NCBI GenBank assembly: GCA_000310025.1
Contig: FN649743.1
Coordinates: 2,686,918-2,734,440 of the forward strand
DNA: 47,523 nt
Source: Ectocarpus siliculosus
Taxonomy: Eukaryota > Sar > Phaeophyceae > Ectocarpales > Ectocarpaceae
Direction of reading: 5' to 3'
A model generated the notes under the pieces. It worked only from the letters and a program-made list of their open reading frames with translations. It was not told the DNA's origin and did no database searches. The stretch's first letter is position 1. The number at the start of each line of letters is the position of its first letter. Below are positions 14,795 through 39,407 of this stretch, piece by piece. The translations under genes were made by a program, and so were the position numbers.

Positions 14795-14879
14795 ATGAAG
14801 ACGCAATGGGAGCTGGGTGCGCTGGTCACCGCTGCTTGCTTCAGCACTGCGTCGGGATACACAACAACCACCTTTTCCG
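14795..14879 (+). other. Gene 1 exon 1: signal peptide
   Basis: ATG at 14795 opens MKTQWELGALVTAACF, a short basic start and a hydrophobic core, then STASGY as a plausible cleavage region. The donor is TCCG|GTAAGC and the exon ends in phase 1. Gene 2 exon 1 begins MKPRWELGALLTVPCF, so the start codon and signal are conserved between paralogues. Confidence 0.8.
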
Positions 14880-17800
14880 GTAAGCATTTCTACCGTACAG
14901 ATGAGGTCCTCGTTCGTTTTCTTAATGCCTCATTTTGCGGGAGGCTCGAGGCTCCAAACCAACAGCCTGGCCCACTCTTCTTGCTCGAGCTGGACCCGGT
15001 AGTAATGCAGGAACCTGTTGCGCTCCTGATACGGCCGAGCGATTCTCCCACCAACTCATGCTCCCGTCCCAAGCCTAACGAGTAGTCCGAGCTGCAGCAA
15101 CAATATTCCAAGGTCGGCGGCCGTTCACGCCTGGATGCGAACCCGTCCCGAATTTTCCCAGAGATGTATCTACATTAGGCGCCCGCATCTACGTCACCGT
15201 GTTGGTCCAGAAGGCCGAATCCGTCGCTCTAGCCGCGGGACATGGCTGCATCGACAGGCACAGCGGATTTCTTCGAGATTTGTCAACCCTAACACTACGG
15301 AATAACACATCATTCGTTAACGCAACGACAGCAGCAACAATCAACAACACTACCTCCTTGGGGAGAGGTATGAATCTGGTGCGACTCAAACTTCCCGTGA
15401 TCATCTCTCGCTGCCGGAGTTGCCGTCTTTCATGCCCTCCCCGCTATCTACCTCGCGTCTTCCACCCCGCGGGTAGGTCTGTCTCTCCACCCCCAACACG
15501 CTGTTGGTCACATGGTCGATCTCGGTCAAAGACGACTCATAATATTTTCAGTTGACGACCCTCGTCAGGATATTGTGTTGCCCCCCTGTAGGACTCCGAA
15601 CCGTATCGCTGACAATCCCGCCGCTCTTGGGCACCTGCTTGCTCAAGCTGGCGTGTCGGAACTAAGGATCGGTTCTTATGACTACTGCAGTTTGCAAGAT
15701 GGAAAACGGAAAATGGTCAGAACTCGGATTGACGAACGAAAGAACGACACAGTGAGGTAGACCACCAACCACGTACGACTTTGTTTGTTCTATGGAAGTT
15801 TTCGCGGGCAAGCTGTGGATAAAACTGCCGAACAAACGATTGGCGCAGGGTGAGGTATTCGACAACAAGTGACGTGGGATGGAGGTAGTCCAGCAGGAGA
15901 AAACCCGTTGGCAAGACTTGGGGGCTCCAAGAAACGCATTCGTAAACAAACAGAGAGCCAAGCACGGTGGTGTTGTCTACATCTGCTCGTAGGAGCAACG
16001 CTTCGTCTCGAAATCCATATATTTTCAGCGCCGGCATGCCGAGGCAAGGGCCAAAAAGAAATGTGCACAAGTAACTCGTTGATCCGTCCTCCAAACGGCG
16101 TCGTTCGACCAGCTGCAAGGCCACAACCGAGGGGTCGTTGTCTCCGGCATTTGGAGGCGACTTTGCCCCGTGTGCCCGCCGTGTACCGCTTCAATTCCAT
16201 TGCTTACCGCACGAAAGTTTGGGTAACTCAACCGGGCTCCAGGTCAGTGATCGAGGAAAAGCCGCCACAGGGAAGTACGGGTGGGACCACAGGCCGTAGC
16301 TGGAGGCCTCATCCGAAATTCAATACTTACATTATATAGTCCTCTAATAGGTCAAGAGCAGTAATGCAACAGATCAATGCCTGCCAGCAAGCCTTATCAC
16401 CTGTCCAACGAAACCGCACTCCCCGATCCCGCTCGACCTTGAACTGCTGTGCAGATTGCTACCAAGAATGGATCAGTGATGGAATGTGCGACTCATGTGA
16501 GTGGCTGTTCTTGATGTGTTCCCTCGCTTCTAACGATGCAGTCAGATAGACGGACGGGGTGCTCTTGAGTTTTGCCCGCGTGTTTCAAACAACGTTTGGC
16601 GTGTGCGCCAGATTGCGCATAGCCATGAGTCGGCCGTTCCTCTCGGTGACGCCGCTGTTCCACGGTGAACGGAGGTACGTGGAGCCCCTCCATCTTGCAG
16701 AATGGAAATTTAGTTGATGGAGCTATTGAAACATTTGCTGTGTCGTTTGTCCAAGGATTTCTATTCGTAGTGAAGACTTGTGGCGAATTCATTTCCTACT
16801 TTGGAATAAGGGTCTGAACCGGTTTCTCTGCACGGCGGGTCTACGTGCGGAATTCACACCGTGCGGTGAGCACGCGAGAAGGCATCCCCCATATGTAAGA
16901 ATGGTGCCCCACAACTTCTCGTTTTATGGACTGCACCTGGCACTGCGCGACTATATATCAATTATTTAGGGAGAGGAGCAACAATATTGGCGCGTTCTTT
17001 GCTACAAGCTAATTGAACCGTTCGAAGCAAACAACTGCCCTCAAGGCCCGGGTTGAGCATGAGGAAACCGACACGCCATTTTTGCCGCACTACTCTCTGC
17101 GATACGCCTCTGTCTGTTTCCTGCCGCTTGTTGCCGTTCCTACTGTGATTCCCATTTGACCACGTCGATTCAGCAGCAATAGCGTGAGTGGGCGGAAACG
17201 TCTGCATTAGAAACTATAGGAATATTTCACGGTTGAGGCGCAAACTATGCTGTCTACGACATAGAGTGGCTGGAACACCCGCATCCAGGTGGATTAAGTG
17301 AAGAATGCAACCCGGAGAAAGAACGTCCCCCTGCATTTCGGGATGTTGAATCGTGATGTTGTTCCGTTTTTGCTTTTGACTTCGCAGCGAACAACAATTC
17401 CGGCTGCGAATACGACGGCGGCGACTGTGAGTGAACTACTAGCGAGAACCGGGCCGGCTTTGGGCGTGGTCTTAACAAGGGCCTTCTCGAAGAGCGAGCC
17501 ACATTCTTTGTTGTTCTGCCGTACTGATTGGTCGCAGGATTAGCCAGCTGTTAGATGCCCATGTCAGTGTTGTCGCCCTAATCAAATTCAAAACAATATT
17601 GGAACCGCCGTGAATCTTTCTCAAATAACAGCCGCGTTTGTCAACTTGATCGAGCAGACGGACTATTTGGACGCCCAATCTTTCTTGGTGGCGGCTTGTG
17701 CTCCATACTGCCGTCGATTGCGTCGGGAATGCTTCTGTAGAGATGGTGCTTTTAGGTTCTGTTGTGGTCGTGATCCCTCAACCAAATTTCCAGCGAAGCC

Positions 17801-20409
17801 GGCGGTTGGTCATATTTTCGCATGTGTTGCGTTCCATCTTCAAAATATCCATTGAGCACTAAGTTCGTTGCAATCTGTCACCGGCAACCTTTTCCCCTGC
17901 GATGTCGCTGAATCTCGAGGCTGCTCATGTGACTGCTTCGACGACACCTACGAGTGCGGTACTGACGGCTTCACCTGCCTCGATCCATCATCGTCCTGCA
18001 CCTGTAAGCCGATGCTGGCGTCATGCCTTTGTTTCGTGATCGATAGCTGAAATAGGGCGCAGCGGCTGGTGTCATTTCTGCCCAGGCGCTACCACCGTGG
18101 GTCAGCCCTATGTGTCAAGACCCTTGTTAGAGCGATATGAGATTGGTGTGAACTAGCTCTCGACAGAAGTAAGTACTAAACGCTCTAGACACATACGTAA
18201 AGGTGGACGTTTGGCAACGATGTTTTCCTCGGGCGATACGTCTCGACAGTCCCGGCTTTTCACACGGTCAACATGACCTCTTCTTCTGTGCTTCTCCCAC
18301 TGTCCTAGGATGTTGTTCAATTGTGCTGGTACAACCCCGTCTTGGTTGAAAAAGGGGAACCCTAAAAAATGGTGTCAACCGTGTTGCTTTCAGGCAGCAT
18401 TGGGCAAAGAATGTACGCAGATACAGACACCGACAGGTTTTTGCATGAACCGTTGGCTGGCGTTACCCTGGAAATCAAACAAGTGCAGTTTTTCCCCGTG
18501 ATTCCTTCCACCCTTTCCCTTGTTCGTTTTTCAACTGATGTGTAAGTTTGAAAATTCGTTCGTCTCCGCGCCTGGACGAATCTTGCTCGACGATGCCACA
18601 TTCGTTTCAGATCACCATTACTATGACGACGATGGCGACCTCTACGACAGCCCAACCTACGATTACGATGTTGACGACTTCGGAGACGACTCCTTCGATG
18701 ACACAACAGACGACAACTCTGTTGACAACTCGGAAGACGACTCCTACGACAGCTCAACCTCCGGCGCCCTTGATCTTGAAGGCGGCGGGATCCCCTCCGA
18801 TGATGGTAAAGGGCTTGGGGGTGCGATGGCCCGCTCGGCGCCTTTACTATTTATCGCACTGGGACGCCGAATCAACGGGCTATGAACACGTTTCAAAATC
18901 AGGATCGTGCGCATAAATAAGCAATGTAGAGCACTCAACTCCTTCTCTCGCTTTCGATGTGTTCGCTCTGAGAAATTCAATCAAAACGCCCGACCAATCG
19001 AGCGGGATGACGCCTATGCGTCCGTGTGCATTGTGACGTCGCCTGGATTTCGACGCTTTATTTCTCACCCTCCCGAATTCTGCTCTGAGTGCATCAGCCG
19101 GGGTCACACAGGGGGAAAGCCACAAACAGGGAATTGTGCTTCTGCGGTGCATGCATTTAATATGTTCGCAAGCAGCGTTGAGTCGTTCTTTTCCCTCGTC
19201 CATCACATTGTTGAAGCTCGTTTCCGCACAACCCCAACCCTCCCACGCTTGCCCTCCCACGCTTGTAGGGTATGCCCAAATGTGACACCATGGTGCCACA
19301 CAAGCTCGCGTCCAAACATTGAAACGTGTGAATTCTCGTTGCATCGACGTGACCTCATGAAAATACTGTGTCGCATCGTCTGTCTCTGTCCCTTGTAATG
19401 TTTCCCAACCTTCGCGTGGACACAACCGCACAACCTCGGTCACGGGCGGGACTGTTATCCGCCATCCATGTTGCCACCGATGTCGACGTTAGGCGATGAT
19501 GGAGGTAGGTTTCTCTTTCTGTTGTCGGCGTATATTAAAGCGCTGGAACGACGGTGGATTGCCAAAACAACTGCGCACTAGCACGTGGGCTTCGACTATG
19601 TAGAACCTTATCAATATCATACACTACACATCGCGTTTTCTGCGAGTTCTTGAACTTCCGGTTTTGTGCTGAGGATTTACCGGGCTACAAGAAGAAGTAT
19701 GTTGACGTCCAATGGGCAATCCGACGATCGTGTGTTCATGATCACGTAACACACCGAAACAATTAACCGAATACCATGTCGAGGAACACCGAATGGAATG
19801 CCTCACGGAGTGCACGTATCGCCCCAAAAGAACGGGAAGAGCGTGCTTTTGACAGTAAACAAGTTAGGACATCGTTATCTAGTATTATGCCGTTCTAGAA
19901 TTGAAACCGTGTGTGTTTTGGCTTGTTCCGTGCTTGGCCACTTGTTGAACAGCAGGCGAACAGTGTACGTAGCTTCCTCTATTGCCAACGGCTCGGCTTC
20001 TTCCTATCACAATTCTATCAACAACGCGTTCCATCCGTTGGTCACGTACCCTTTGCATCGCAACCTAGCAGCTCCGGTAGGCGCTATCGTCGGTGGAGTA
20101 GTCGGCGGAACGGCCTTTTTGGCTGCTGCCGCCGTATTGGTGTGCTTGTTCGTCACGTGTCGCCTCAAGTGCTCCAAGTGCTGCAGCTCCCCAGGCCCTC
20201 CTGCAGCTCCTGCTCCTCCTGCCGGTCACGGCTCAGTCCAAGCGACCACCAAGACGTTTCCTGGGCCTGCGGCCCCTGCTGCTGCCGCTCCCGCTAGTGA
20301 TCTTCCTCCTCCTCCGGCGTATGGCAGCTCTGACCACGGCGCGACGTCGACGGCAACCTCTGCGCCACCTGACACCCATCCAGTACACCAGTTTCCCCAA
20401 ATGAAATGA
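14795..20409 (+). CDS. Gene 1: type I membrane protein with one LNR-like module and PPxY tail
   Basis: Six exons are proposed: 14795-14879, 16455-16496, 17388-17426, 17920-18003, 18611-18805 and 20072-20409. All five introns are phase 1, and the exons sum to 783 nt (260 aa plus stop). Order in the protein: signal peptide (1 to about 21), LNR-like unit ending EYDGGDC (30-56), CxCDC cysteine domain (56-82), Asp/Tyr-rich acidic segment (84-148), membrane helix with GxxxG-like glycines (about 152-177), basic Cys-rich juxtamembrane RLKCSKCC, and a Pro-rich tail with PPAY at 229-232. The layout predicts an extracellular, calcium-binding cysteine module and a cytosolic tail able to bind WW-domain proteins such as NEDD4-type ligases. 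That role follows from motif knowledge and is not shown here. Gene 2 downstream is a paralogue in the same direction. An extra exon in the 1.6-kb first intron cannot be excluded. Confidence 0.75.
16455..16496 (+). other. Gene 1 exon A (first half of LNR-like unit)
   Basis: This 42-nt exon runs between TGTGCAG and GTGAGT, phase 1 at both ends. It encodes CYQEWISDGMCDS, matching the xDGxCD start of a Lin-12/Notch repeat. Confidence 0.8.
17388..17426 (+). other. Gene 1 exon B (DGGDC half of LNR-like unit)
   Basis: This 39-nt exon runs between TTCGCAG and GTGAGT, phase 1 at both ends. It encodes NNNSGCEYDGGD and is completed to C by exon C. This is the diagnostic CNxxxCxxDGGDC end of LNR repeats, except that the Cys before NNN is Ser. 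Confidence 0.85.
17920..18003 (+). other. Gene 1 exon C (CxCDC cysteine domain)
   Basis: This 84-nt exon has phase 1 at both ends, with acceptor TCTCGAG and donor GTAAGC. It encodes CSCDCFDDTYECG followed by FTCLDPSSSC. The Cys spacing is conserved in four copies of gene 2. No named domain was recognised. Confidence 0.8.
18611..18805 (+). other. Gene 1 exon D (Asp/Tyr-rich stalk)
   Basis: This 195-nt exon runs between CGTTTCAG and GTAAAG, phase 1 at both ends. It begins HHYYDDDGDLYDS and remains acidic for about 50 residues before turning to Gly/Leu. A second frame over the same bases is also open and Thr-rich, but it would run into a stop in the last exon. Confidence 0.7.
19493..19504 (+). 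other. Candidate 12-nt microexon in gene 1
   Basis: GCGATGATGGAG stands between TTAG and GTAGGT, is phase 1 at both ends and would add four residues. The block and its flanks (GCCACCGATxTCGACxTTAG before, GTAGGTTTCTC after) are conserved at the equivalent place in gene 2 (38389-38400). Leaving it out also keeps the frame. Confidence 0.35.
20072..20409 (+). other. Gene 1 last exon: membrane helix and Pro-rich tail
   Basis: The exon starts after a tandem acceptor (TAGCAG), so two splice choices three bases apart are possible and both keep the frame. It encodes PVGAIVGGVVGGTAFLA, further hydrophobic residues, RLKCSKCC, then a tail rich in Pro and Ala with LPPPPAYGSS, and ends at TGA. Confidence 0.85.
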
Positions 20410-21362
20410 GGTTTCTCTCGGGAATATCGACGAGACGGGGACATGAAAGGTGAAATACAGGTCGATTGGCAGGCCGCTAACTGTCCGGGAAGGCGGATCC
20501 CCAATCGAAGAGAGTTGCCAGCGGCCGGGCTCTGCTTGAGCAAAAGAGGCACTGCTACCCTCCGGTGTGTACGTATGGTTGGAGAGCATTGTCTCGCTCG
20601 ACCAATGGGTGTGGAGATTTCAAAATGTTGTTCGTTACGTAGTTCTTGCTCGTAGGATTGGCACGTTGACCGGCCTGTCGGCCGGTGTTGCTGCAGAGGG
20701 AGATTCCAGGTAGCGCCGCTTTCTACCACTAGGAGCGCAATCTGGGAGTGAAAAAAGTGGACCAAACTCACTTGCCTTCCCCCGAACTGTCCGCTATGAC
20801 GTCAAGCTTGCCCAGTACTTTTGTTCACATCATTTACACGAGGAGTTCAGGTCGTATCGCTTTCCAGGATGCGTGGATTGGAGTGCCCACATTCTTCGGC
20901 ACTCGCTCTTGTTTGTTTTTCACAACCCGTGCTTTATTTGCCTTTCACTGCAAAGGGACCTGTAGTAATTTCCTTCCATGTATATATTCCTCTTTTCTGG
21001 CTTTGATGGGCGTTGCTCTTGGATTCGCAGTGCTGGGTACTTTATTTAGGCAACACGTATGGACTCGCGAGTATCACTACGTATATTTGCTGAGGGTACT
21101 GTAGGTAGGTCATGAAAATACTAAAACGCTGTGCACCCACTACGAATAGACGCTGGACTGTTGTCCACGGAAAGTGATGAACCTGCATCGTTGGTTCAAG
21201 TTCAAAAACGAACGTGGTTGTTCCACGGCAAGCTCTGCTTAGCGTCCGCTTTAGTGTTTTTCCTGTTTCGAATAATTATTGCATTTGTAGCGATGTTTTT
21301 GTACAGCCTGGACGTGCCAGATGCAGTCTCGTCGGTCACTCACTGCTATACATTCCAGAACC
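20410..21362. other. Downstream of gene 1
   Basis: It contains the expected 3'UTR and a short GC hairpin near 20670-20688 (ACCGGCC, loop TGTC, GGCCGGT). No further gene recognised. Confidence 0.4.
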
Positions 21363-21682
21363 GGTCGCCCCGGTGGTCTAGGTGATATCCTCGAAACCTT
21401 CTAGAGGTCAGGTCAGGGGTTCGAATCCCGGCGTAAGCGAGCTTTTCCTGCAGAGTGAGTTTTTCTCTCGCTTCCGCTCCTGGCCTAGTGGATAGCGCTA
21501 GTTCGTGTGTGCACAGAAGGAAAGTGCTGAACTCTTCTCGCATTAAAAATCGAAGGAAACGTACCGCAGGAGGGTAGGATAGAGAGGGGTCCATCTGTGT
21601 GACCACGGGTTGGAGTAAACGGCACACTAGTGCTGTGAGCGCTGATTTGAAGTGAAGACAAAAAAAAAAAAGAAAAAAAAAA
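21363..21682 (+). mobile_element. tRNA-derived SINE with poly(A) tail
   Basis: A pol III A-box-like TGGTCTAGGTGAT at about 21373 and a B box GGGTTCGAATCCC at 21417-21429 form a tRNA-like head. A second A-box-like TGGCCTAGTGGATAGCGCTA lies at 21481-21500. The element ends in a poly(A) stretch at about 21660-21682. The anticodon arm does not fold well, so this is not a working tRNA gene. A truncated copy of the 3' end occurs at 9920-9985. Confidence 0.75.
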
Positions 21683-23389
21683 TCCCGCGGAGAGTCAGGG
21701 AGTCAGGGACGGGTGAATCGAACGGCCGTCTTAGAGCGTCCGCTGCCATCCGATAGTTCGTGTACTACAAATGAGAGCGTTCGTCGTGGTTTCAGCTTTA
21801 ATAAAAAACGAGGAACTGCCGGAGTCTGTTTCCAGTACGACCCCTTATACTGCTGGTACTCGACAGTCACCCGTATAATAGTATGTATGTATGTATGTAT
21901 GCATATGTCGTGTTTACAGTCTGCCGATAGATCGTCCCGCCGTTCCATCTCATCAGTGTTGGATGTTGGTCGGGCACAAGGGTTCGATGCAATACGCCCA
22001 TCGTATCGAGAAAAAAACACAAATACCGATATTTTGTTCGATATCCCGAAAATGGGTCGATACGTACCGAGTATCGATACTCGATATCGATACGGCTGTT
22101 TTGAAGGCCTCAGGTTACAAGAAGAGCGAGCGTTACGCAACTACACGTACCCTGGCACACCCAAACCCTTATCTGAAGTATACAGCAGTGCGCAAGACGT
22201 GCGCGCATGGTCTGGCGGCATGGAAGTAGTGGTGTTTGCCAGATGCCAGGTGTGTGCAGTTGAACACCACGAGCACAACAACAACAGCGGGCACACGTTG
22301 TGATGTGATGTTGCGCATACAAAACTGCATCGTGCAAGAGGCAGGTTGGTTGTGTATAGCTATGTCCACCAGATATATTTTACATTTTACAGTCAGTGTG
22401 CATGTGTGTATAGTGTATACACGTGTATACACGTACGCACTGTAACACCGCCGTACGGTTTCGATCGAATCAGTGCAAGCTCGGCTGCGAGCAGGAAGGA
22501 TTTCATGACAAAAAAACGCGGAAAAAACTCGAACACTTGGTTTTATATTATCTTACTATACCTTCAAATGCATGCAAAATTCTACCCACCAGTTGTGGGT
22601 GCCCAACAATCAGCAATGCACCTCGAGCGAGTATCAACATCTCATAACGCATTGCGATACCAACAGTTTTTCTGAACTTATCATGTGGCTTGCACCGCTG
22701 TTGTCAGTCACATATTTCCGACAAGAGAGGAGGGAACCGCGGGTGGTTGAATTAACCACTTTGCTGACAGACAGCTACGTAGCCAGACGCAGCTCCATGC
22801 ACTCACTCTCTGACTACCTACTTTCAGCACGGGCCACACCAAGTACTGGCGAAAACGGGTGCGCCCGATGCGAACATAGATAGCCACAGTCGATTTTCAG
22901 TACAACACGTCGCTCGCGACCGCATGCCGCCATTTGATTGGCCGCCGCCCACCGCCACCCAACCCCGCGACCTGCTTACAACTACGGCGGCCGAGTGCAC
23001 CACCAGATCATGTCGCTATTTATACTCAAGCCCGGCGGATACTCTACTTTCGATTCTTGTTTCCCTGCACCCGAACAAGGCCGGGCTGCTGCTAAAATGC
23101 TATGACTCCACTCACGTGGCGATGCTATTTCCGGCGTGATGCCGTGTGTCCTAAATACCTATCCCAACGCCCGCTGGGGCAGCAGGAGAAGCGATGCGCA
23201 GTTGACCGACGTCGAAAACGCGGAGAAAAATGTTTCTTTCTTGCGGCGCAACCGGTGTTCATGAACAATAATAGTAGGTGACGTCATCCGTCTGGAAGTG
23301 CCACCGGCAGGGTCAGCCTGTGAGCGACATCATGTCAAGAGGACAACAAGCGGCATACCCTCAGCAGTGGCGTGCGAAAACAGCGGCAG
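21683..23389. other. Intergenic DNA with simple repeats and palindromes
   Basis: It holds a GTAT tetranucleotide run (about 21882-21901), a cluster of ATCGAT/CGATAT palindromes near 22020-22100, and alternating GTATAC/CACGTG-type purine-pyrimidine runs near 22400-22440. No gene recognised. Confidence 0.4.
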
Positions 23390-23960
23390 TTGAAACGTGC
23401 CACTACTCGTGATTTATCGCCCATTCAACCAGGGCGGGATACTTTCTCTCCATGCTGCGCAATGCTGCGTGCAAGAGGTTGCTTGACGACGCAAGTTCGC
23501 GGCACGTAGAGGTGACAACAACAACACCACGACCAGCAGCGTCTCCTCGGCTTCTGTGCCCGCTGCCGATGCTTCTTCTGCCGTAGCCACTGCTGCTGCT
23601 GCTGCTGCCGCCGTCACTCCACAGCGTTCTGCGGCACGTGCCACATCTTGCGGCTCCGACATATGACGCATGCACGGATGGTCGCCACATCACCACAATA
23701 TCAATCGAGCGATCTCGTTCCGTATCATTTTCCGCGAACGTTCTTTCTACTGCTGGCAACTTATTGCACAGGCACACGCAGCGAGATATTTGCCACTGAA
23801 ACATCGGGCTCCACCTACCTGTGCTCAGCTCGGCGGGTGCCTCGCGCAACCTTCCACCGCCTGGTCGTCCAGCGACACGAGTCAAGCTCCAGCCACACCA
23901 GATCCAGCACTTCGCAGAAGAAACCGTTTGCGGCGGTAGCACCCCCTCCTGGGGCGTAGC
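23390..23960. repeat. Dispersed repeat family, copy 2
   Basis: It shares GTCTCCTCGGCTTCTGTGCC, CCCGCTGCCGATGCTTCTTC, the GCTGCT run, CATTTTCCGCGAACG and TCGTCCAGCGACACGAGTCA with the copies at about 8170-9150 and 41390-42010. There is no open frame with a known domain. Confidence 0.5.
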
Positions 23961-24893: not shown

Positions 24894-24960
24894 TGCAATG
24901 CATTGTTGTGTACGAAATCGTATCCCCATTTGTGTGGGGTTCCCCTGCAATTTCAGGTGG

Positions 24961-26564: not shown

Positions 26565-26652
26565 ATGAAGCCGCGATGGGAGCTGGGCGCGCTTCTCACC
26601 GTCCCTTGCTTCAGCGGCGCGCAGGGAGTCACTACTTATTATTCGTCGTCCG
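26565..26652 (+). other. Gene 2 exon 1: signal peptide
   Basis: The acceptor TTTGGACAG precedes GCCATG, as in gene 1. The exon encodes MKPRWELGALLTVPCF and SGAQGV, ends TCCG|GTAAGC in phase 1, and has an in-frame stop upstream of the acceptor, which supports this ATG as the start. Blocks of intron 1 (CCTCATTTTGCG-type and GGAGGCTxxxCTCCAAACC-type) are shared with gene 1. Confidence 0.8.
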
Positions 26653-29600
26653 GTAAGCGCTTGGTGCTACAAATGGGACTACCCCTGTGGGGGCCTCTCA
26701 TTTTGCGCTAAGCGCTAAGCTCGCGGAGGCTGCTCCAAACCGGGCTATCTTCGAATTTCGGCCAGGCCTATCCGGTTCTGGTTCTTATTCCTGCAAGGGG
26801 TTCCCAAATGCAGGTTGTCACTCTCCGGTGCCCGTGTTCGGCACTGGATGAGGCAAAAACAACGTACCATTCATATTTCGCCTAACCAAGTGATTTGCCA
26901 AGAAGTTCATCTCTCCGCGCCTAGCCCAACTTGCAGTAACGAATCGTCAAGGGCGGCGACCGTACACGCTTGGATGCGAGACCCGTGCCGTATTGCCACC
27001 GTGCATCTAGTCGTCCGCATCCATTTCTATCGTCTTCTTCTAGAAGGCCAAGTTCATCGCTCAAGCTCCCCGCGCGATTCCTGCATAGAGAACCACCAAG
27101 GGGCGTTTTCAAAAGTCAAAATGCCGTTACTGATTAGATATCAATCGACATGAAGTAATTAATGAATCCAACGACAACAACACATCCGGGAGAGGTATGA
27201 TTCCGATGAGAGCCAAACTTGACGATCCGTTTCATCGCCAAAGTTGCCGTCCTCCATGCCCTCCCCGCTGCAGTCCGCCACGCCTCACGGCGGTTAGGTC
27301 TGTCTCCCCGCCCAAAACACGCTGCGGGTCATACTATTGTAATAACCCCACTGGTAAATCTTGATCACGGAAGGTTCATCCCCCCCCGATCATGACCCCC
27401 GCCAGATTCGTGTGTTGGTCACCACAACTCTTTGGGACTCCATCACCCTGACCCTAGCAGTTCAGCCGAGCCTGTTGTGCGCCTAATTTGAGGGTCTTTG
27501 CTCAAGCTAGCTCTCTGGGACTTGGCATCGAATATTAGGAACCGCCAGAACGATACAGTGGGGTGCACACCACCAGTTGGCGTTTGTGTGGTCCACGGTA
27601 ACGTGTGCGCAAGATGGAGAAGTATGCCACAAACGCGATTTGGAGCATAGGATACGGTAGTCGGCAAAAAAATGACCTGCGTAGGAGGAGTGCGAGCAGA
27701 GGGAAAGGTCGCCGGCGAAGCTCGGGGTCCCAAGATAAATACATCCATGAACGAAAACGAGTGCCAAGAACGGTGTTGTTGCTCCATGTCCACTTGTAGG
27801 AGCAGTGCTTCGCGTCCAGAGGGGTCCTTTCTCAACGTTGGAGTGACCAAGGCAAGAGCAACCAAGTACATATAGCTTATTATCAGACCTCATCGCCTGT
27901 CCGACAAACCCCTCTCCCCGATGCCCTCTTCGACCTCAACGGCTGTACAGGTTGCACATCTTCGTTCATCGGTGATGGGTGGTGCGACTCATGTAAGTGG
28001 TAATTCTTGATGTTTCGGTACTGTCGTGAGGTGGGCAGACGGTGTTTGGTTTGGTGGCTTTTTTTTCCTGGCATGGTTCAACAGCGTTCGGCGGATGTAC
28101 AGAAATGCGCTTGACCATTGGTACGTCCGATTGGCCCAACGCCGTTGTGTCGAGCTATATGTTGAGCATGGTCGGTGCTGATGCCGTTCCACGGGGAACA
28201 GACGGTACTGGGAGCCACTTCAACCCCTAGACAGGAAATTTGGCCAAGGATCTGTTGAAACAGTTCGTCACTTCTGAACGAGTCTCGCTGCGTGGGCGGG
28301 TATGTATGTGTGGCGATGTCACTTCCTACTAGGAATTGGGCTTTGAAAGTTTGCTGAGTATGCCGGATGCGCTTCAGTAGTCCATACCGTAATGTGAGCA
28401 CACGAGAAAGGCATCTCCTATACGGAAGCATTGAACAACACTGTCAATTCTCGCGATGTTTCCACGTGCGGTGCCGTATATAAACCTGCAAAAGCGGAAG
28501 CTTAGACGCCCGTAGCAACCAAATGCCACCAAGGTCAAGGCTGAGCAACTGGAGACGGGTTGTCCCATCAAGTCCCAATCCTCTCTGGGATAGGACCCTC
28601 TCACCGCTCCTTGCTACACCTGCACCCCAATTGGCAACGTCGATTCAGCAATTGTGGCAACCCGTGTTGATGGAGACGCCTGCTCCTTTAGAATACATAG
28701 AAGTTCACATATTGTTCGGTTGAGGCGAACGCCGATGCTGGGTGCGTCTTAGCATGACGGGAACCCAGTGCGGGTTCCGTCAAGAGAAACAACACCCCTT
28801 CATTTTGAGACCCTGAGTCGTATGGTTGTTCCGTTCTTGCTTTGCATTTTCGCAGCGAACAACAATTCCGACTGCGACTACGACGGCGGGGACTGTGAGT
28901 AAACGACTAGCGAGAGCTGGACCGGCCTTGAGCATGGTCTGAACGAGACTCTTCTCGAAGAGCAAGCACCCCACCTTCGTTGTCATACCGTCATGATAGA
29001 TCGCCTGTTGCGAACATGGTTGAGTATTCTGCTGGATGCCCTTGTGAATTTCGCGTCGCGTAGTATCGGTTCAATATGTGTCTATTGAATCCTCAAGTCC
29101 CAACTCCAACGTTTTCTCAAATTTCAGTCGCGTAGCCAAGATGACCGACGCATGATGGGATGGTTCAACCATACGAGTTCTTCTGCGGCCGACCCCCCTT
29201 GCTTTTATTGAGTTGCCTCTTGAATCTTTTGCGAAATCGATGTCGGATGTCTACATCCTGTTGTGGTGGTGATCCCAGGACCTAATAGCTTTTCTGAGCA
29301 TCGGTGGTTGGTCATGTGTCCCCCCGTGTTGCTTCCCGTCTTCAAAACATCCTTTCAGAACTAATTCCGTCGCGTGCTGTCACCGGCCATCTTGTTCTCC
29401 GCGATGCTGCTAACCCTCAAGGCTGCTCATGCGACTGCCTCGACGACACCTTCGATTGCGGTGTTGTCGGCTTCACCTGCATCGATCCCACATCGTCCTG
29501 CTACTGTGAGCCGAAGTACTGATATCTGAAATAGTATGCAGCGGCAGCTGTGTGTTCGACCCACGCACTGCTGTCGTCGTGCATCATGTGTGTCGAGACC

Positions 29601-32600
29601 CTTGTATACTACATCGACCGATGTCAGATAGATGTGAGGTAGCCATTTGTCGACCGAGATATTGCTTCAACCAGTCGACCCGGACATGGAGGCGGGCATT
29701 TGATGGCGTTGGTGTACCTCGGGGTGGAAAGTCTCGACATTCTCGGTGACACTGTTCCACCCACGCTGACGCAGGTCTGGTCGGAAACTAACCCTATTTT
29801 CCGAGTATTGCCACCATGTTTCCCTCTCGCACGGCCAAGGCGGCCTCTACCGTGGTCACAAGAGCATTGGGCTCGACTCAGAAGTGGTGGTGTTCCTTTG
29901 GTTGTGAAAGGAATTTGGATGCAGAGCCCTGGGAATTGAACTGTATGGAGCACCTGAACGAAGACTATTGGCAGATGAAGACATGGGCAGCACTTCGAAG
30001 CATGTCCGTCTACCGTAGAACGGTAGAGTCTGCGACCACTCATCACCATCCCCGTCCCCCGGCTTTTTCGTTTGTCAATCGATACGGCGTGCGCGGCCGG
30101 AAAAACCGGGTTCGACGATGACACACCTACCTGCTGTCAGATCACCACTACTACGACGACGACTACTATGACGACGACGACGACATCTTCTTGGATGACG
30201 ACGACTCTGTGCCAACCTACTACTACTTGGATGACGACGACGGGAGCACCAGTAAGGGCGTTGTGGATGTGATCGCGCTCTCAGATGTTGAATCCGTGCC
30301 TTCCTGCATGCTTCTGCGTCTTGATGTCAAATCCACACCATCTAGGCCAGGGGTGAACGATGTCTTTTGTTGTAGCCACTCTCCACTTTTTTCAGTTTGG
30401 GTCGGCCGAGGGAGTGCGATAGGTTTTTTGTGTTTTTAGGTAACAGTTAGACATGTCTTGGTTTGCATAGGATATAGTGTGCAGATTCAAAATTGTATAT
30501 ACCTCTGAGTGGCATGCATATGCAGTAAAGACCGTACATGCTTGGACAGATACACTAAAAAAACACGGCGTTCTGCCGCACTGGCAACACCACAACGAGC
30601 GGTCACGCAGAATCGAAACCCCAGCGGGACGACGACCAACCGGAGGTGCATACTGGTAGTTACAGGATTGATTATGGTCAAGTCTGCTATAAACTACTCA
30701 TCGCATGTAAAATTTATCCGTTGTCTAAAGTTCATAGAGTACCGAACGGAAGGTAGGTGTGATCTGCGACGGCGACGATCTTCCCATCTGCACACGCTCG
30801 ACTTGCGACAGGCGCTGGCCGCATGTGTCCAACGCAAGAGCCAGACAAGTACACACAATCTAGTATGCCTCAACGCCTGTCTGACAAACAAACCCTGTTC
30901 CCGGATGCCCTCCTCGGCCTCAACGGTTGTGCAGGTTGCACAACTTCGTATATCAGTGACGGATTGTGCGACTCATGTAAGCGGCCGTTCTCGATTTGTT
31001 AGCTAGTGCTGATGCTGTCAGATGATCGGTGATGATGTCGTTCCACGGTACTGGGAGCCACTTGAACTTCTAGGCTGGGAATTCGCTAGAATGAGAATCT
31101 GGTCAAGGGGCCGCTGAAACAGTTGCTATGTCGTTTGTTTCACTTCGCCTCGGGATGGATATGCGGGGCGAGTTCGGATCGTCCTTGGCATTGCGTTTGA
31201 AATGTTTGCTGAGTATGCCGGATCTGCTTCACTAGCCCATGCCGTAAGGTGAGCACACGAGAAAGACATCCCCTGTAGGTAAAGCATTGAAAAACGCCAC
31301 CGCGGAGATTACGGCCTGCAACTAACTGTCAATTCTCGCGATGTTCCCACGAACGGTGCCGTATATACACCTTGAAACCCTGAAGGCAAGCTATGACACA
31401 ATGAATGGCATGGTTGTCGCGTTCTTGCTTTGCATTTTCGCAGCGAACAACAATTCCGACTGCGACTACGACGGCGGCGACTGTGAGTGACCGACTGGCA
31501 GGAGCTGGACCGGCCCTGAGCATGGTCTGAACAAGATGCTTCTCGAAGAGCGAGCACCCCACCTTCGTCGTCCTATCGTGCTGTTAGATCGCCTGTTGCG
31601 AACATGGTTGAGCATTCTGCTGGATGCCGTTGTCAGTGTCGCGTCGCGCAGTACCAAATTCAACACGTGTGTATGGGATCCTCAAGTACCCACTCCAACG
31701 TTTCTCAAATTTCAGTCGCGTACATAGTCAAGATGAACGGCGCCATACTTGGTTTAACCATACGAGTTCTTCTGCGGCGGACCCCCCTTGCTTTCATTGA
31801 ATTGCCTCCTCAATCTGTTGTGATCGCGATCCCAGGACCTAATAGCCAGTCCTGCGCATCAGCGGTTGATCGTCTTCCTCCACGTGTTGCTTTCCATGTT
31901 CAAAACATCCATCCAGAACTAATTTCGTCACGTGCTGTCACGGGCTATCTTGTTCTCCGCGGTGCTACCAAACCTCAAGGCTGCTCATGCGACTGCCTCG
32001 ACGACACCTACGAGTGTGGTGTTTTCGGCTTCACCTGCATCGATCCCACATCGTCCTGCTACTGTGAGCCGAAGTACTGATATCTGAAATAGTATGCAGC
32101 GGCAGCTGTGTGTTCGGCCCACGCACTGTCGTCGTGCATCATGTGTGTCGAGACCCTTGTGTACTAAATTGACCGATGTCAGATAGATGTGAGGTAGCCA
32201 TGTGTCGACCGAGATATTGCTTCAACCAGTCGACCCGGACATGGAGGCGGGCATTTGATGGCGTTGGTGTACCTCGGGGTGGAAAGTCTCGACATTCTCG
32301 GTGACACTGTTCCACCCACGCTGACGCAGGTCTGGTCGGAAACTAACCCTATTTTCCGAGTATTGCCACCATGTTTCCCTCTCGCACGGCCAAGGCGGCC
32401 TCTACCGTGGTCACAAGAGCATTGGGCTCGACTCAGAAGTGGTGGTGTTCCTTTGGTTGTGAAAGGAATTTGGATGCAGAGCCTAGGAAATTGAACTGTA
32501 TGGAGCACCTGAACGAAGAATATTGGCAGATGAAGACATGGGCAGCACTTCGAAGCATGTCCGTCTACCGTAGAACGGTAGAGTCTGCGACCACTCCTCA

Positions 32601-35600
32601 CCCCCCCGTCCCCCGGCTTCTTTATTTGTCAATCGATACGTATGTGTAAAAATCGGCGTGCGCGGCTGGAAAAACCGGGTTCGACGATGACACACCTACC
32701 TGCTGTCAGATCACCACTACTACGACGACGACTACTATGACGATGACGACGACATCTTCTTGGATGACGACGACTCTGTGCCAACCTACTACTACTTGGA
32801 TGACGACGACGGGAGCACCAGTAAGGGCGTTGTGGATGTGATCGCGCTCTCAGATGTTGAATCCGTGCCTTCCTGCATGCTTCTGCGTCTTGATGTCAAA
32901 TCCACACCATCTAGGCCAGGGGTGAACGATGTCTTTTGTTGTAGCCACTCTCCACTTTTTTCAGTTTGGGTCGGCCGAGGGAGTGCGATAGGTTTTTTGT
33001 GTTTTTAGGTAACAGTAGACATATCTTGGTTTGCATATAGGATATAGTGTGCATAGTATATATTACATAGTAAAGACCGTACATGCTTGGACAGATACAC
33101 TAAAAAAACACGGCGTTCTGCCGCACTGGCAACACCACAACGAGCGGTCACGCAGAATCGAAACCCCAGCGGGACGACGACCAACCAAAGGTGCATACTG
33201 GTAGTTACAGGATTTATTATGGTCAAGTCTGCTATGAACTACTTATCGCATGTAAAATTTATCCGTTGTCTAAAGTTCATAGAGTACCCAACGAAAGGAA
33301 GGCGTGATTTGCGACGGCGACGATCTTCCCATCCGCAGAGGCTCGGCTTGCAACACATGTGTCCAACGCAAGAGCCAGACAAGTACACACAATCTAGCAT
33401 GCCTCAACGCCTGTCTGACAAACAAACCCCGTTCCCCGATGCCCCCCTCGGCCTCAACGGTTGTGCAGGTTGCACAACTTCGTTTATCAGTAATGGCATG
33501 TGCGACTCATGTAAGTGGTCGTTGTCGATGTGTTAGCTTGTGCTGATGCTGTCAGATGATCGGTGATGATGTCGTTCCACGGTACTGGGAGCCACTTGAA
33601 CTTCTAGGCTGGGAATTCGCTAGAATGATAATCTGGTCAAGGGGCCGCTGAAACCGTTGCTGTGTCGTTTGTTTCACTTCGCCTCGGGATGGATATGCGG
33701 GGCGAGTTCGGATCGTCCTTGGCATTGCGTTTGAAATGTTTGCTGAGTATGCCGGATCTGCTTCACTAGCCCATGCCACACGAGAAAGACATTCCCTGTA
33801 GGTAAAGCATTGATTAACACCACCGCCAGTGTTAGAGACTGCAATTGTCAATTCTCGCGATGTTCCCACGAACGGTGCCGTATATACACCTTGAAACCCT
33901 GAAGGCAAGCTATGACACAATGAATGGCATGGTTGTTGCGTTCTTGCTTTGCATTTTCGCAGGGAACAACAATTCCGACTGCGACTACGACGGCGGCGAC
34001 TGTGAGTGAACGACTGGCGAGAGCTGGACCGGCCTTGAGCATGGTCTGAACAAGATGCTTCTCGATGAGCAAGCACCCCACCTTCGTGCTCCTATCGTGC
34101 TGTTAGATCGCCTGTTGCACACAAGGTTGAGCATTCTGCTGGATGCCCTTGTCAATGTCACGTCGCGCAGTATCAGATTCAACACGTGTGTATGGGATCC
34201 TCAAGTACCCACTCCAACGTTTCTCAAATTTCAGTCGCGTACATAGTCAAGATGACCGACGCATGACTCGATGGTTCAACTGGACAAGTTCTTCTTCGGC
34301 GAACCCCCCTTGCTTTCATTGAATTGCCTCCTCAATCTGTTGTGATCGCGATCCCAGTACTCACTAGCCAGTCCTGAGCATCAGCGGTTGATCGTCTTCC
34401 CCCACGTGTTGCTTTCCATCTTCAAAACATCCATCCAGAGCTAATTTCGTCGCGTGCTGTCACCGGCCATCTTGTTCTCCGCGATGCTGCTAACCCTCAA
34501 GGCTGCTCATGCGACTGCCTCGACGACACCTACGAGTGCGGTGTTGTCGGCTTCACCTGCATCGATCCCACATCGTCCTGCTACTGTGAGCCGAAGTACT
34601 GATATCTGAAATAGGATGCAGCGGCATCTGTGTGTTCGGCCCTGGCACTGTCGTCGTGGATCATAGCTGTCGAGACCCTTGTGTACTACATCGACCGACG
34701 CCAGATAGATATGAGGTAGCTATTTGTCGACCGAGATATTGCCGTAACCAGTCGACACCGACATGGAGGCGGGCATTTGATAACGTTGGTGTACCTCGGC
34801 GTGGACAGTCTCGACATTCTCGGTGACCCACGCTGACGCAGGTCTGGTAGGAATAGTGCATATTTTCCGAGTATTTCCACCATGTTTCCCTCTTGCACGG
34901 CCAAGGCGGCGTCTACCGTGGTCGCAAGAGCATTGAGCTTGAGTCAGAAGTGGTGGTGTTCCCTTGGTTGTGAAAGGAATTTGGATGCAGAGCCCCGGAA
35001 ATTGGAGCTGTATGGAGCGCCTGAACAAAGACTGTTGGCAGATGAAGACATGGGCAGCGCTTCGAAGCATGTCGGTTTACCGTAGAACGGTAGAGTCTGC
35101 GACCACTCATCACCATCCCCGTCCCCCGGCTTTTTCGTTTGTCAATCGATGCGCATGTGTATCATCCACCGCGTGCGCGGCCGGAAAAACTGGGTTCGAC
35201 GATGACACACCTACCTGCTGTCAGATCACCACTACTACGACGACGACTACTATGACGATGACGACGACATCTTCTTGGATGGCGACGACGGGATCACCGG
35301 TAAGACCGTTGGGGATGCGATGGTGCTCTCATAGGATGAACCCGTGCCTGTCTCTGCATGTTGATGTCAAATCCACACCATCTATTGTGGGGTAAACGAT
35401 GTTAATTGTTTACGCCACACCCCACTCATTCCAGTTTGGGCTGTCCGAGTGAGTCCAACAGGATTTAATTGGTCGAGGTAGTAGTAAACGTTATGCCCTT
35501 GTCTATGTATCTACTTTTTCTACGAGTTTCGAATTCTTCCCGGAGTTGGCAGTTTGAAACTTGGACAGCTTTATCGTGATGGATACCAACTTGTCAGACA

Positions 35601-38600
35601 ATTTAAAATGTTTTGTTCCTTGTTTCGTGACTTTTGGAGTCACGTGGAGTGAAGAACACTCTTAGTCACTTCTAGCCCTCAGAGTGTTGGCTCACAGAAA
35701 TCCATTAATACACCCACTACAGATAGACTTGTGTGGCAAAGATGTGTGCTTTTGTTTTGTTCCCGCCTATTCTGGAAGGCGACATATTCCCGTTTCGGAA
35801 CTTAGGATGGGCGCGCTAGCCGCGGTAATGCAGAGGGAAAGCCACGACAGGAGTTTCTTCTTCCTCACGATCCTTGAGCGGTGCATATTTATGGCGAGCA
35901 GCGATGAGCCGTTTATTTGAGTCTTTGATCTAGCCGTCGGAACTCGTGTACGCATGCGTTCGACTAGCCGTTGTGATTCCTATCTTCCAAACTTGTTTGG
36001 GCAAACCTTAATATGAGGGCAACGCAGAGGTTGGACCTCACGTCCAACGGTTGAATATTGTCAGGTTGCGAACGTAGTACCTCTCGGATGGCCAGTTCTC
36101 GCCCTCTCTTTGCTGATGTTGCGTGTCCTGCGGCCATGTTGTTCCGCTCACGAACGTTTTTTTTGTGATGTTTTCGCGAGCGGCAAGACCAACGAAGGCC
36201 GGCCCACGTGAAAGTCGTCGCATGCACGGTATTTGATAAAGGGTGCGCCGAAGCCGGCGCCCGGGTCGTGGCCAACCTGATAGTAGTGTCTGCGCGTGTC
36301 AATGTTTTGTGGGTGCTCGCCGCCATCGCCCGTGTTCTACTTGGCAAGCTAGCCAGGGAAAAATACTTCCCTGACATCCGTGGCTCGTTGGTGCTGCCAC
36401 TTGTTTGGCGACGCTCATTCCGCCCCTGCGCCTTCGCCGGCCGCCTTACCCTCTGCAGAACCTACTCCAGAGCCTTCTCCCGAGCCAACTCCGGCGCCTA
36501 CTCCAATGCCCGCTGCCGAACCTACTCCAGAGCCTATTCCGGAGCCTACTCCAGAGCCTACTGTGCCTACCGGTGAGAAATCTGTCGCTTCCTCGCGGCG
36601 TCGTCACCGTAACTTAAAGTCTTGAGGTGGCGATATTGCTTGTGCCATCCCCACCCGTGGTAGCTTCGTGAGCGGTGGTAAGCTCTCTCAAGGTTTCTTC
36701 GTTTCATCACAAAGGTGACGCTACGCGTGTTCGAACGAAGCCGTTTATACGAAGCAGACAGAAACACTGATAATTTCGACGCCCAGCAACTCCCCACCCC
36801 TCCCATCCCAGATGCCGTAGCGTTGACAGACGTTGTCTGCGTCCCGCGCGTCTTCTGTCGATTATTGCAGGGTGTATCTCGGCGGGTGATGGCTTGTGCG
36901 ACCAAGGTGTGTGACTGCCTTGAATTTCCGCCCGCAGGCACCAGAGAAGCAGGAGAATGCCTGGCGCGTGCTTTCTACGATGATTGTTGACACGAAATAG
37001 TTTTTTGGCGCTTTCCTCGACGATTGCTATCGTCGACCTTCACTGCTTTATATATGAGTGCTAGGTTGCCTTCCGTCGTCAACAAAACGGGATTCGATCA
37101 GCACCATGTCACGCCCGGGAGTGACGGTATGGCGCAACTTGTAAGCAGTTTGTATGCGGGTGACCACCCACAAGTACATCATCGATTTTTAAACAACCTG
37201 CTGTTTCGCACATCGACATCAACACCACGCTGTTGAGCAGTATGGACAAAATTTCGTCGCGCCGCCGGTTTATCTGATCGAAGTAACAGTGCCACTTGCC
37301 GTTGGGACCGCCTTGGTCCGTGGCACTTAGGAGCCACGCGATCTAGGCGCGTTGCTACGGCACCGACGAATGAGAAAATCCACTGGGGGAGCCCTCTCGT
37401 AATTATGCCCTCTTTGTCCCCTGTCGTGGTTATCCTTTGTCACAGCGAACAACAACGCGGAGTGCAACTGGGATGGAGGAGAGTAAGTTCGGCGTTGCAA
37501 GGGTTCTACGAAGCGTAGCACAAAAGGGTCTTTCCAAATACTTAAAGGGTTGTATTGTTATGGTGCGGTATCTTCCGTTGTTTTCGGCGATGACGCTTGA
37601 GGTGTTGTGATGAAGATTCCGCAGAACCGACGATGACTTGTGCAAACTGTCGCCGTAGCACCGTTTGCCGAAACTCACCCACGATTTGAAGCAAAAACGA
37701 TTTTCTGCTCATGCGTAGGCGTCCGATCCACTGACATTTCCACTCGTATTCCGCGTGCGATGCTTTCTCCCTGCTGTACAGCTGCTGCGAATGCGACTGC
37801 TCAGAACCTTCTATTGGGGAAGAGCTGTGTGGGAGTAATGGTTACGACTGCATCAACCCAGATTCATCATGTAGATCTAATGAAGGTATGCAAGAGTCTC
37901 GCTGCACTTGCCGCCAGGGGGCAGTACGTGTCGGAACCCATTGGCCCACTAGGCTCCCATTCGTTGCGCAATCCGTCCATCTTAGAAGTCTACAAGCTCA
38001 GCCGTATGTGCAGTAGGTCGACTTGGAAAATACCACCCCAAACTCTGGCTTGTATTCGTCTGTTTTCCCTTGTGTGGCCAGCGACTATGCATTGGTGGGT
38101 TTGGTCCATGGCCGGGGCAGGATTCTAAAACGCACGGGCACATAGCCTCGTGCTGCGGCGTTTTCCAGACACGAACTTTTAAAAGCAAAGCGGTTCGGTA
38201 ACCCAACACGAACGGCCGATCTTCTAACTGTCTGTGGTCTCCGCCATCTGACGTTGTGACGTTTTGATGTGACAACCCGTTCTTCCCGTTGCATCGTTTC
38301 CCCATCTTCTTGGCGATAACACAACCGCAACATGGGTTGCTGGTGGGGCTTTCCCGGTCGTCCCTGATGCCACCGATTTCGACATTAGGCGATGATGGAG
38401 GTAGGTTTCTCGTTCCTTTCTCGGCGCTCGGTTTCGAGCCATAAGACGGCCCTGGGCCGCAGTGATGATGGGCACGAATAAGCATTTATTTTCCTGTTGA
38501 ATTTTCCAGCGCCGTGTAGAGGACAGCATGCCCTGGGTTGCTTCTTGTTCGTGTTTGTGCGCTTTTCGGTTTCAATTTGTGTGGTGAAGGTCTTCCAGTC

Positions 38601-39407
38601 GGCCCTGCCCTCGCTGGGCATAGTCATGCTGCTAACGCAAGCAGCTAGCATCGTTGTTCTCGTCATGAAAACAAGCGGGCAGATGTGACTGTACAAGTTC
38701 GAGAAAGTATGCATGCGATGCACTACACTCACGCACTTTCTCTCGACCTCGGAAAGAGGACGGAGCGACCCAACGAGTATCATGAAACGCGTGATTAAAC
38801 TAGCACACGTTGGGTGCCACAAACTTCGACTGTTGCACCGTTTCGTCTAGAATTAGATATTTCCGAATTTGATTTTCTGAGCGTTTACTGAGTGCATGTT
38901 GGGGTCACACCCGTTCTGAAGCAAGCAAACACCGAACCATTCCTGTGTAGCCTCCTTCAATCACGGAGAGCTCGGCTCCATCCTCTTCTCACTCCGTTCA
39001 ACAACCCCCCCTCCATTGGCGCTCTGCCCTTGCATGGCAACCGAGCAGCTCCAGTGGGCGCTATCGTCGGTGGAGCCGTGGGGGGGACGGTGTTTTTAGC
39101 TGGTGCGGCCGCGTTGGCGTGCTTGCTCGCCACGGGTCGCCTGAAGTGCGGCAAGAGCCGCAGCTCCTCAACCTCTCCCGCCGTTCCTGCCGCTCCGAGC
39201 GGTGCCCCGGCGGCGGTCACAGGATCCGGTGGGTCTGCGGCCTCCTCCTCTGCTACCGCTCCTGCTCCTTCCGCTCCCGCTGGTGATCCTCCTGCTGCTT
39301 CCGGTGGTTTAGCACTCGATCCGATGTTGACTGTCCGAGAGGTTCCCGTCGCCAGAGCCACTCCTCCTCCGCCTTATGGCGAATCAAACCCCCCCTACAA
39401 GGGGTGA
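26565..39407 (+). CDS. Gene 2: type I membrane protein with four LNR-like modules and PPxY tail
   Basis: Exons proposed: 26565-26652; 27951-27992, 28856-28894, 29422-29505, 30141-30251; 30935-30976, 31444-31482, 31980-32063, 32710-32820; 33469-33510, 33963-34001, 34502-34585, 35225-35299; 36459-36572; 36871-36906, 37446-37482, 37782-37885; 39049-39407. They sum to 1530 nt, 509 aa plus stop, with no frame break. Every junction is phase 1 except the B/C junction of the last module (phase 2 on both sides). The protein order is signal peptide, three A-B-C-D sets, a Pro-Glu-Thr stalk, a diverged A-B-C set, membrane helix, and a tail with PPPPYGES. It is the expanded paralogue of gene 1, about 6 kb downstream in the same direction. 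Introns as well as exons of sets 1-3 are nearly identical, so the expansion is recent. Expected at the cell surface. Ligand and partner are unknown. Confidence 0.75.
27951..30251 (+). other. Gene 2 module 1 (exons A, B, C, D)
   Basis: Exon A encodes CTSSFIGDGWCDS, exon B NNNSDCDYDGGD, exon C CSCDCLDDTFDCG then FTCIDPTSSC, and exon D HHYYDDDYYDDDDDIFLDD then SVPTYYYLDDDD. Lengths are 42, 39, 84 and 111 nt, all phase 1 on both sides. A TGCTAAC branch-point-like site precedes the C acceptor. Confidence 0.8.
27951..30934 (+). repeat. Tandem unit 1 of gene 2
   Basis: Measured from exon A to exon A this unit is 2984 bp. Its second half (from exon B on) is almost the same as unit 2, including intron sequence. 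Its first intron is more diverged, so the copied block probably began inside the A-B intron. Confidence 0.75.
30935..32820 (+). other. Gene 2 module 2 (exons A, B, C, D)
   Basis: Exon A encodes CTTSYISDGLCDS, B is identical in protein to module 1, C has CSCDCLDDTYECGVFGFTC, and D is identical in length and protein to module 1. All borders are phase 1. Confidence 0.8.
30935..33468 (+). repeat. Tandem unit 2 of gene 2
   Basis: The unit is 2534 bp from exon A to exon A. Long stretches such as 32070-33000 match 29510-30440 nearly base for base, across an intron, exon D and the next intron. Small indels near 30430-30530 against 33000-33070 mark the few differences. Confidence 0.85.
33469..35299 (+). 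other. Gene 2 module 3 (exons A, B, C, short D)
   Basis: Exon A encodes CTTSFISNGMCDS. Exon B starts GG instead of CG, which turns the Ser at the A/B junction into Trp. C matches module 1 closely. D is only 75 nt: the 36 bases for the TYYYLDDDD part are gone, an in-frame loss, and it ends ACCG|GTAAGA. Confidence 0.8.
33469..35400 (+). repeat. Tandem unit 3 of gene 2, truncated
   Basis: The unit repeats the exon A to exon D part of units 1 and 2 with somewhat more substitutions. Similarity fades after about 35400, before the next exon A position, where unrelated intron sequence leads to the Pro-rich exon. Confidence 0.75.
36459..36572 (+). other. Gene 2 Pro-Glu-Thr stalk exon
   Basis: This 114-nt exon runs between CTCTGCAG and GTGAGA, phase 1 at both ends. 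It encodes repeated PTPEP/PEPTP units ending EPTVPT. Such Pro-rich, Thr-containing stretches usually form extended, often glycosylated spacers. Gene 1 has no equivalent. The frame stays open upstream of the acceptor, so a longer exon cannot be excluded. Confidence 0.65.
36871..37885 (+). other. Gene 2 module 4 (diverged exons A, B, C)
   Basis: Exon A (36871-36906) is six bases shorter and encodes CISAGDGLCDQ. Exon B (37446-37482) encodes NNNAECNWDGG with the Trp seen in animal LNR repeats. Exon C (37782-37885) encodes CCECDCSEPSIGEELCG then YDCINPDSSC. The B/C intron is two bases further upstream than in the other modules (GA|C against GAC T|GC), and both sides have shifted together, so the frame holds. 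This set has no D exon. Confidence 0.7.
38389..38400 (+). other. Candidate 12-nt microexon in gene 2
   Basis: The sequence, flanking TTAG and GTAGGT, and phase are the same as at 19493-19504 of gene 1. It would add four residues before the membrane exon. Conservation could also mean an intronic regulatory block. Confidence 0.35.
39049..39407 (+). other. Gene 2 last exon: membrane helix and Pro-rich tail
   Basis: It starts after the tandem acceptor GAGCAG and encodes PVGAIVGGAVGGTVFLAG, further hydrophobic residues, RLKCGKSR, then a long Pro/Ala/Ser tail ending ATPPPPYGESNPPYKG and TGA. PPPY near residues 497-500 is a PPxY motif. Compared with gene 1 the juxtamembrane Cys cluster is reduced to one Cys. 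Confidence 0.85.

Follow-up and report, generated by a model that had tools for sequence, protein, structure and literature searches.

Two adjacent Ectocarpus siliculosus genes with capped LNR modules as candidate calcium-dependent surface receptors or adhesins

What kind of proteins do two neighbouring, many-exon genes of the brown alga Ectocarpus siliculosus encode, and how did one of them come to carry four copies of a module of which the other carries one? Both genes lie on contig FN649743.1 (GenBank assembly GCA_000310025.1), within positions 2,686,918 to 2,734,440 of the forward strand, a stretch of 47,523 nucleotides (nt) that is called the window here and whose own numbering is used for both genes. 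Brown algal multicellularity arose independently of animals and plants, and to our knowledge the surface receptors of brown algae are little known. It seems probable that both genes specify type I membrane proteins, functioning as Ca2+-dependent receptors or adhesins at the cell surface or matrix and ending in PPxY tails; the modules of gene 2 were multiplied by block duplication. A signal peptide would be followed by an extracellular part, in which gene 1 has one extended LNR module and gene 2 has four, each composed of a four-cysteine LNR with the motif DGGDC and a six-cysteine cap. Linkers rich in acidic residues or proline would come next, then a transmembrane helix and the PPxY tail. The modules would bind an outside partner in a Ca2+-dependent manner, the tail could recruit WW-domain proteins for the control of trafficking or signalling. 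The number of modules in gene 2 changed through the tandem duplication of blocks of about 2.5 kilobases (kb) with the frame kept. Such countable, frame-neutral modules would offer a concrete gene set for tests of cell recognition, gamete contact, and immunity.

Gene 1 (14795-20409, + strand) rebuilds as 7 exons and gene 2 (26565-39407, + strand) as 19, separated by GT-AG introns. The frames are closed and measure 795 and 1542 nt if a candidate 12-nt micro-exon is counted. Without it the frames are 783 and 1530 nt, the two lengths given in the original prediction, whose exon anatomy and frame neutrality were recovered as well. The exons, all putative, and the repeated array are the following.

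14795..14879, + strand: gene 1 first exon, 85 nt, with a signal peptide called by eye (rebuilt model; match of the gene 2 first exon)
16455..16496, + strand: gene 1 exon A, N-terminal half of the LNR, 42 nt
17388..17426, + strand: gene 1 exon B, DGGD half of the LNR, 39 nt
17920..18003, + strand: gene 1 exon C, cysteine cap with CxCDC, 84 nt
18611..18805, + strand: gene 1 exon D, acidic linker, 195 nt
19493..19504, + strand: gene 1 candidate micro-exon GDDG, 12 nt
20072..20409, + strand: gene 1 last exon, 338 nt, with a transmembrane segment called by eye and the PPAY tail
26565..26652, + strand: gene 2 first exon, 88 nt, with a signal peptide called by eye
27951..27992, + strand: gene 2 exon A1
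28856..28894, + strand: gene 2 exon B1
29422..29505, + strand: gene 2 exon C1
30141..30251, + strand: gene 2 exon D1, 111 nt
30935..30976, + strand: gene 2 exon A2
31444..31482, + strand: gene 2 exon B2
31980..32063, + strand: gene 2 exon C2
32710..32820, + strand: gene 2 exon D2, 111 nt
33469..33510, + strand: gene 2 exon A3
33963..34001, + strand: gene 2 exon B3
34502..34585, + strand: gene 2 exon C3
35225..35299, + strand: gene 2 exon D3, 75 nt
36459..36572, + strand: gene 2 exon P, Pro/Glu/Thr-rich stalk with 12-nt repeats, 114 nt
36871..36906, + strand: gene 2 exon A4, 36 nt
37446..37482, + strand: gene 2 exon B4, 37 nt, phase-2 end
37782..37885, + strand: gene 2 exon C4, cap with CCECDC, second subtype, 104 nt
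38389..38400, + strand: gene 2 candidate micro-exon GDDG, 12 nt
39049..39407, + strand: gene 2 last exon, 359 nt, with a transmembrane segment called by eye and the PPPY tail
28806..35466, + strand: gene 2 tandem array of A-B-C-D blocks of about 2.5 kb with their introns (self-alignment)

Exon boundaries were picked so as to keep the frame open; gene 1 has ten acceptors that leave its last exon open, and the chosen one matches the position used in gene 2 and in the paralogues. With the micro-exon counted, all six introns of gene 1 and 17 of the 18 of gene 2 are in phase 1 (5/5 and 16/17 without it), and the internal exons are divisible by three in 5/5 and 15/17 cases, respectively. The sole phase exception in gene 2 is the phase-2 intron between B4 and C4, two exons that are not multiples of three themselves, although their sum is. 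The expected rule of nearly constant phase 1 and exons in multiples of three therefore holds in general and breaks at this junction. Similarly, the proposed A/B/C/D layout describes modules 1-3 of gene 2, which are alike and have acidic linkers between them, and does not extend to module 4, another subtype with other exon lengths and phase, which is also present at C18:2.62M and on C12 (B exon of 37 nt, phase 2). The added exon P sits between modules 3 and 4, and its Pro/Glu/Thr stalk is a 12-nt tandem repeat. Both proteins would share one order, namely a signal peptide, the LNR module or modules, a linker, a transmembrane segment and then RLKC, and finally a PPxY tail rich in proline; such a membrane layout is plausible. 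Patterns for the A, B, and C exons with their splice sites found 5, 5, and 5 matches on the + strand of the window, and no match came from its - strand or from a set of 100 order-1 Markov sequences; since the patterns were derived from these very exons, the test speaks for specificity only and not for independent discovery. As for the micro-exon, its acceptor AG is kept in four of the six genes compared and missing in two, and its universal presence was rejected.

Gene 2 matches the Pfam LNR model PF00066 in 4 stretches with 47.9 bits (E 1.8e-12), above the curated cut-off of 21.2. Exons A and B together form an LNR with four cysteines, and none of the five window modules has the six-cysteine, three-disulfide scheme of Notch; all five carry the calcium motif DGGDC, from which Ca2+ binding is predicted. 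Exon C adds the six-cysteine cap directly after this motif. No Pfam model matches the cap in either protein, and no NCBIfam model does so in gene 2 or in the bacterial protein L034 described below. Five cap cysteines are invariant in 14/14 aligned algal modules and the sixth occurs in the window type only. All ten module cysteines, which would engage in disulfides, are kept in gene 1, in units 1-3 of gene 2, and in two paralogues on contig C69, gamma and delta, which have closed frames of 1065 and 1149 nt and the exon order of the window genes and thereby lend the gene models independent support. Matches to Trypan_PARP and DUF1947 (Pfam) and to SslE and internalin K (NCBIfam) fall in proline-rich or acidic stretches, far under the cut-offs, and were set aside.

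The relatives of solved structure, judged by sequence, are the LNRs of PAPP-A2, PAPP-A, GNPTAB, and Notch, and the module profile matches PAPP-A and PAPP-A2 across the LNR and beyond it. According to published work on PAPP-A, its LNRs contain one or two disulfides and bind Ca2+, and LNR3 helps to bind substrate and inhibitor and is followed by residues that continue its spiral (PMC9579167). The algal module resembles this LNR3 (PF00066, IPR000800) in the DGGDC motif and its spacing, in having fewer disulfides than Notch, and in the continuation after the LNR. However, the algal genes differ in the six-cysteine cap with a pattern of its own, the three-exon module, the acidic linkers, and the type I membrane layout they appear to have, and a homology between this cap and the PAPP-A tail is at most conjectural.

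In gene 2, the stretch 28806-32996 aligns to 31394-35466 with 88.6% identity, and within it 29506-30859 and 32064-33391 are 97.0% identical; the second and third A-B-C units are 93.5% identical to each other and the first and second 82%. Gene 2 thus reads as having grown through successive tandem duplication of multi-exon blocks of about 2.5 kb together with their introns. The exon shuffling originally suggested does not fit this picture, and single-exon shuffling was rejected because the copied units comprise several exons plus introns. Since the exons of these blocks are bounded by phase-1 introns, the frame is preserved whenever a block is added. Loss of blocks may occur too, as indicated by the paralogous copy beta (C69 13313-14679, L005), which is reduced to a first and a last exon, lacks a start codon, and carries a frameshift; over 439 positions, its last exon and flanks share 96% identity with gene 2, and it looks like a deletion derivative.

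The same phase-1 borders around the exons of modules 1-3 would allow a block to be skipped without change of frame, and alternative splicing could then yield isoforms with differing module numbers and a variable recognition repertoire. The like has been proposed for brown-algal ROCO and NB-ARC-TPR genes, and the 72-bp LRR exons of the ROCO genes, all in phase 2, are reported to show exon shuffling and alternative splicing (PMC11378527). Nevertheless, such a variable receptor is unlikely here. Four of the five genes of the window subtype with a module read (genes 1 and 2, gamma, delta, and epsilon, the latter at C18:3.0M on the - strand and assembled in part) have a single module; moreover, the skipping of A, B, or C by itself would break the cysteine scheme, so only the skipping of whole blocks would seem useful. 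The window genes share with the ROCO LRR exons, and with the NB-ARC-TPR exons cited in the same publication, frame-neutral repeat exons, a variable copy number, and a proposed role in recognition. ROCO genes, however, use one 72-bp exon per LRR, in phase 2, within GTPase proteins, and the one-repeat-per-exon, one-phase rule of ROCO and NB-ARC-TPR genes does not apply to the window genes, which have three exons per module, mostly phase-1 introns with one in phase 2, an apparent surface protein as product, and duplication of whole blocks.

The paralogues allow an appraisal of constraint. The first exon of gene 2 matches six places in the genome, genes 1 and 2 among them, and exon length modulo three is constant within the first exons (four read), the D exons (six), and the last exons (six). 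Across three pairwise alignments, identity is 74-100% for the A, B, and C exons and 50-72% for introns 1-3; the introns have many gaps, exon C has 0, 3, and 15 gap columns, and A and B have none. The ratio of nonsynonymous to synonymous substitution rates (dN/dS) over A+B+C ranges from 0.19 to 1.01 in 21 pairs, 20 of them below 1, and that of the last exon from 0.43 to 0.86 in 15 pairs, the pairs being non-independent in both sets; these values suggest mild constraint at most. PPxY is present in six of the seven last exons read, the seventh being that of the damaged copy beta, and this count excludes the more distant last-exon matches on C11, C12, C18:2.62M, and C18:4.29M. WW domains, the putative partners of such tails, give 75 matches in the genome at E<=0.001. 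In addition, the last exons at 8246, 28521, and 41799 of C69 show a cytoplasmic tail with duplicated proline-rich segments, so that not only the number of modules but also the length of the tail is variable.

Several observations weigh against the reading as surface receptors or adhesins. The gene models rest on genomic sequence, with signal peptide and transmembrane segment called by eye. Gene 1 reaches 20.9 bits against PF00066 (E 0.00048), just under the cut-off, and is consequently assigned to LNR because it resembles gene 2 and the paralogues; the earlier wording "LNR-like" can thus be sharpened to LNR proper for gene 2, gene 1 falling just below. A structure prediction of two L034 translations and three window C exons gave a predicted local distance difference test score (pLDDT) of 38.9 and a predicted template modelling score (pTM) of 0.17, and was not used. 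Introns 4-5 of gamma and delta are 84-87% identical, as similar as exons, the D exons are 61-71% identical and no better conserved than introns, and several dN/dS values lie near 1, with 165 sites per pair. Moreover, PPxY occurs in a proline-rich tail, where short motifs easily arise, and the distant last-exon matches stand outside its count.

Some of these points would also be expected if gene 2, or both genes, were nonfunctional members of a decaying tandem family with a drifting array. Besides the dN/dS values near 1, this is favoured by the damage in copy beta and by copy alpha, in which a micro-exon-like stretch and a last exon were the only parts found in the region searched. It is nonetheless quite improbable, since the frames stay open through 7 and 19 exons, although with boundaries picked with the frame in view, and none of the ten module cysteines is missing from gamma, delta, gene 1, or the first three units of gene 2. 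A Notch-type signalling receptor, in which LNRs guard a cleavage site and gamma-secretase frees the tail, is very improbable, in spite of the combination of LNR and single transmembrane segment and of the Presenilin, Nicastrin, and 16 Notch-domain genes reported among Ectocarpus gamete transcripts (PMC3879662), since the Pfam scan matched no EGF or ANK (ankyrin) domain in either protein, the Notch receptor being defined in another report by EGF, LNR, and ANK domains together (PMC2770060), and since the single LNR of gene 1, gamma, and delta is set off from the membrane by an acidic linker.

The surface proteins proposed here seem to belong to a larger set. The search for further module genes that had been suggested was run in the alga's own genome and gave 104 matches with E values of 10 or less. 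Of these, 43 had E<1e-3, one with an internal stop and some with LNR only or cap only; clustering of these 43 yielded 28 groups on 18 contigs, those of the window counted in. Module number is one or four in the window genes themselves. Twenty stretches around module matches and 13 pieces around closer paralogues were read. The LNR+cap unit occurs in at least three exon registers. The first is the tri-exon A/B/C register of the window genes, and the second is a single open frame, found at 7 places in 6 loci tested. In the third (L016, L017, L026, L029, and L030), the exons are half-shifted; they start just before the DGG of one module and end, in 11/13 cases, with G|GT, a would-be phase 1, after the CG of the next module, so that the LNR would be restored at every splice, at a point right in front of its DGGDC motif. 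Several registers of one module imply introns at different places of a constant domain. The splitting of the fold over exons, highlighted at first, is therefore not the defining feature, as the unit lies in one open frame at the 7 places, is cut elsewhere in five other loci, and is uninterrupted in bacteria; for the same reasons an ancestral exon split was rejected. Another cysteine-rich element, the EsV-1-7 repeat, is very abundant in this genome, with 880 first-look candidates, of which 150 were scored, and none in 14 control genomes, an abundance that agrees with a brown-algal origin.

The assumption that no such family had been described is correct in part. For the cap, the exon layout, and the bacterial modules, no description was found in the open-licence literature, surveyed in part. 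Notch-domain genes of Ectocarpus are nevertheless in print, with the same InterPro domain and probably from the same organism group, and the portion of text available gives no architecture, cap, exon layout, or module duplication, which restricts the comparison to the domain (PMC3879662). Diatom Notch-domain genes with domain counts also appear in the excerpted text of a further study (PMC8613185), and the LNR has been proposed to be as old as the last eukaryote ancestor (PMC2770060).

Relatives of the whole unit were met in bacteria. A scan of prokaryote genomes matched a contig (L034) of the Candidatus Neomarinimicrobiota metagenome-assembled genome (MAG) SI037_bin34, where positions 2281-5559 hold an intronless open frame of 1093 residues with an LDLa domain and two LNR stretches. 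LDLa and LNR domains are better known from animals. Module 2 of L034 matches A+B+C over residues 1-55 at 55%, with all six cap cysteines present, and against 12 algal caps its cap exceeded 20000 of 20000 cysteine-fixed shuffles, a test that covers the closest bacterial cap only, aligned by hand. The frame beside it presumably encodes a DnaG primase, judging from a motif, which speaks against algal contamination, and the same MAG has a further match on a second contig. Overall, 10/245 Marinimicrobiota genomes match at E<=0.001, this MAG included, in uninterrupted open frames of 384-3154 residues; in a control phylum none of 244 genomes did, an empty answer that alone shows little. The bacterial proteins share with the algal ones an LNR followed by a cysteine cap and differ in their large intronless frames and, in L034, in the LDLa domain; of the other bacterial caps read, most depart from the algal pattern past the first cysteines. 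A cap common to bacterial and algal proteins suggests a domain boundary that was not seen in the Pfam and NCBIfam scans made here. It is a tentative and rather doubtful proposal that LNR and cap constitute an unnamed composite domain of bacteria and brown algae, perhaps laterally transferred, from which the alga made a large surface-recognition family, with phase-1 introns at subfamily-specific points of the module letting blocks duplicate, and perhaps splice alternatively, in frame. Among viral sequences, 23 stretches matched the pattern and none was confirmed. A Clostridia locus (L035), with similarity over 12 residues around DGGDCCEC only, inside a 317-residue frame that we take to be a dehydrogenase, was rejected as chance.

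Frames of mobile-element type lie on both sides of the two genes. Two overlapping Tc5/pogo-type transposase frames occupy 43650-45420 on the - strand (DDE_1, E 1.1e-12; HTH_Tnp_Tc5 weak and under its cut-off), and a reverse-transcriptase frame upstream of gene 1, at 11501-12184 on the - strand (Pfam RVT_1, E 1.8e-14), is probably part of a retroelement.

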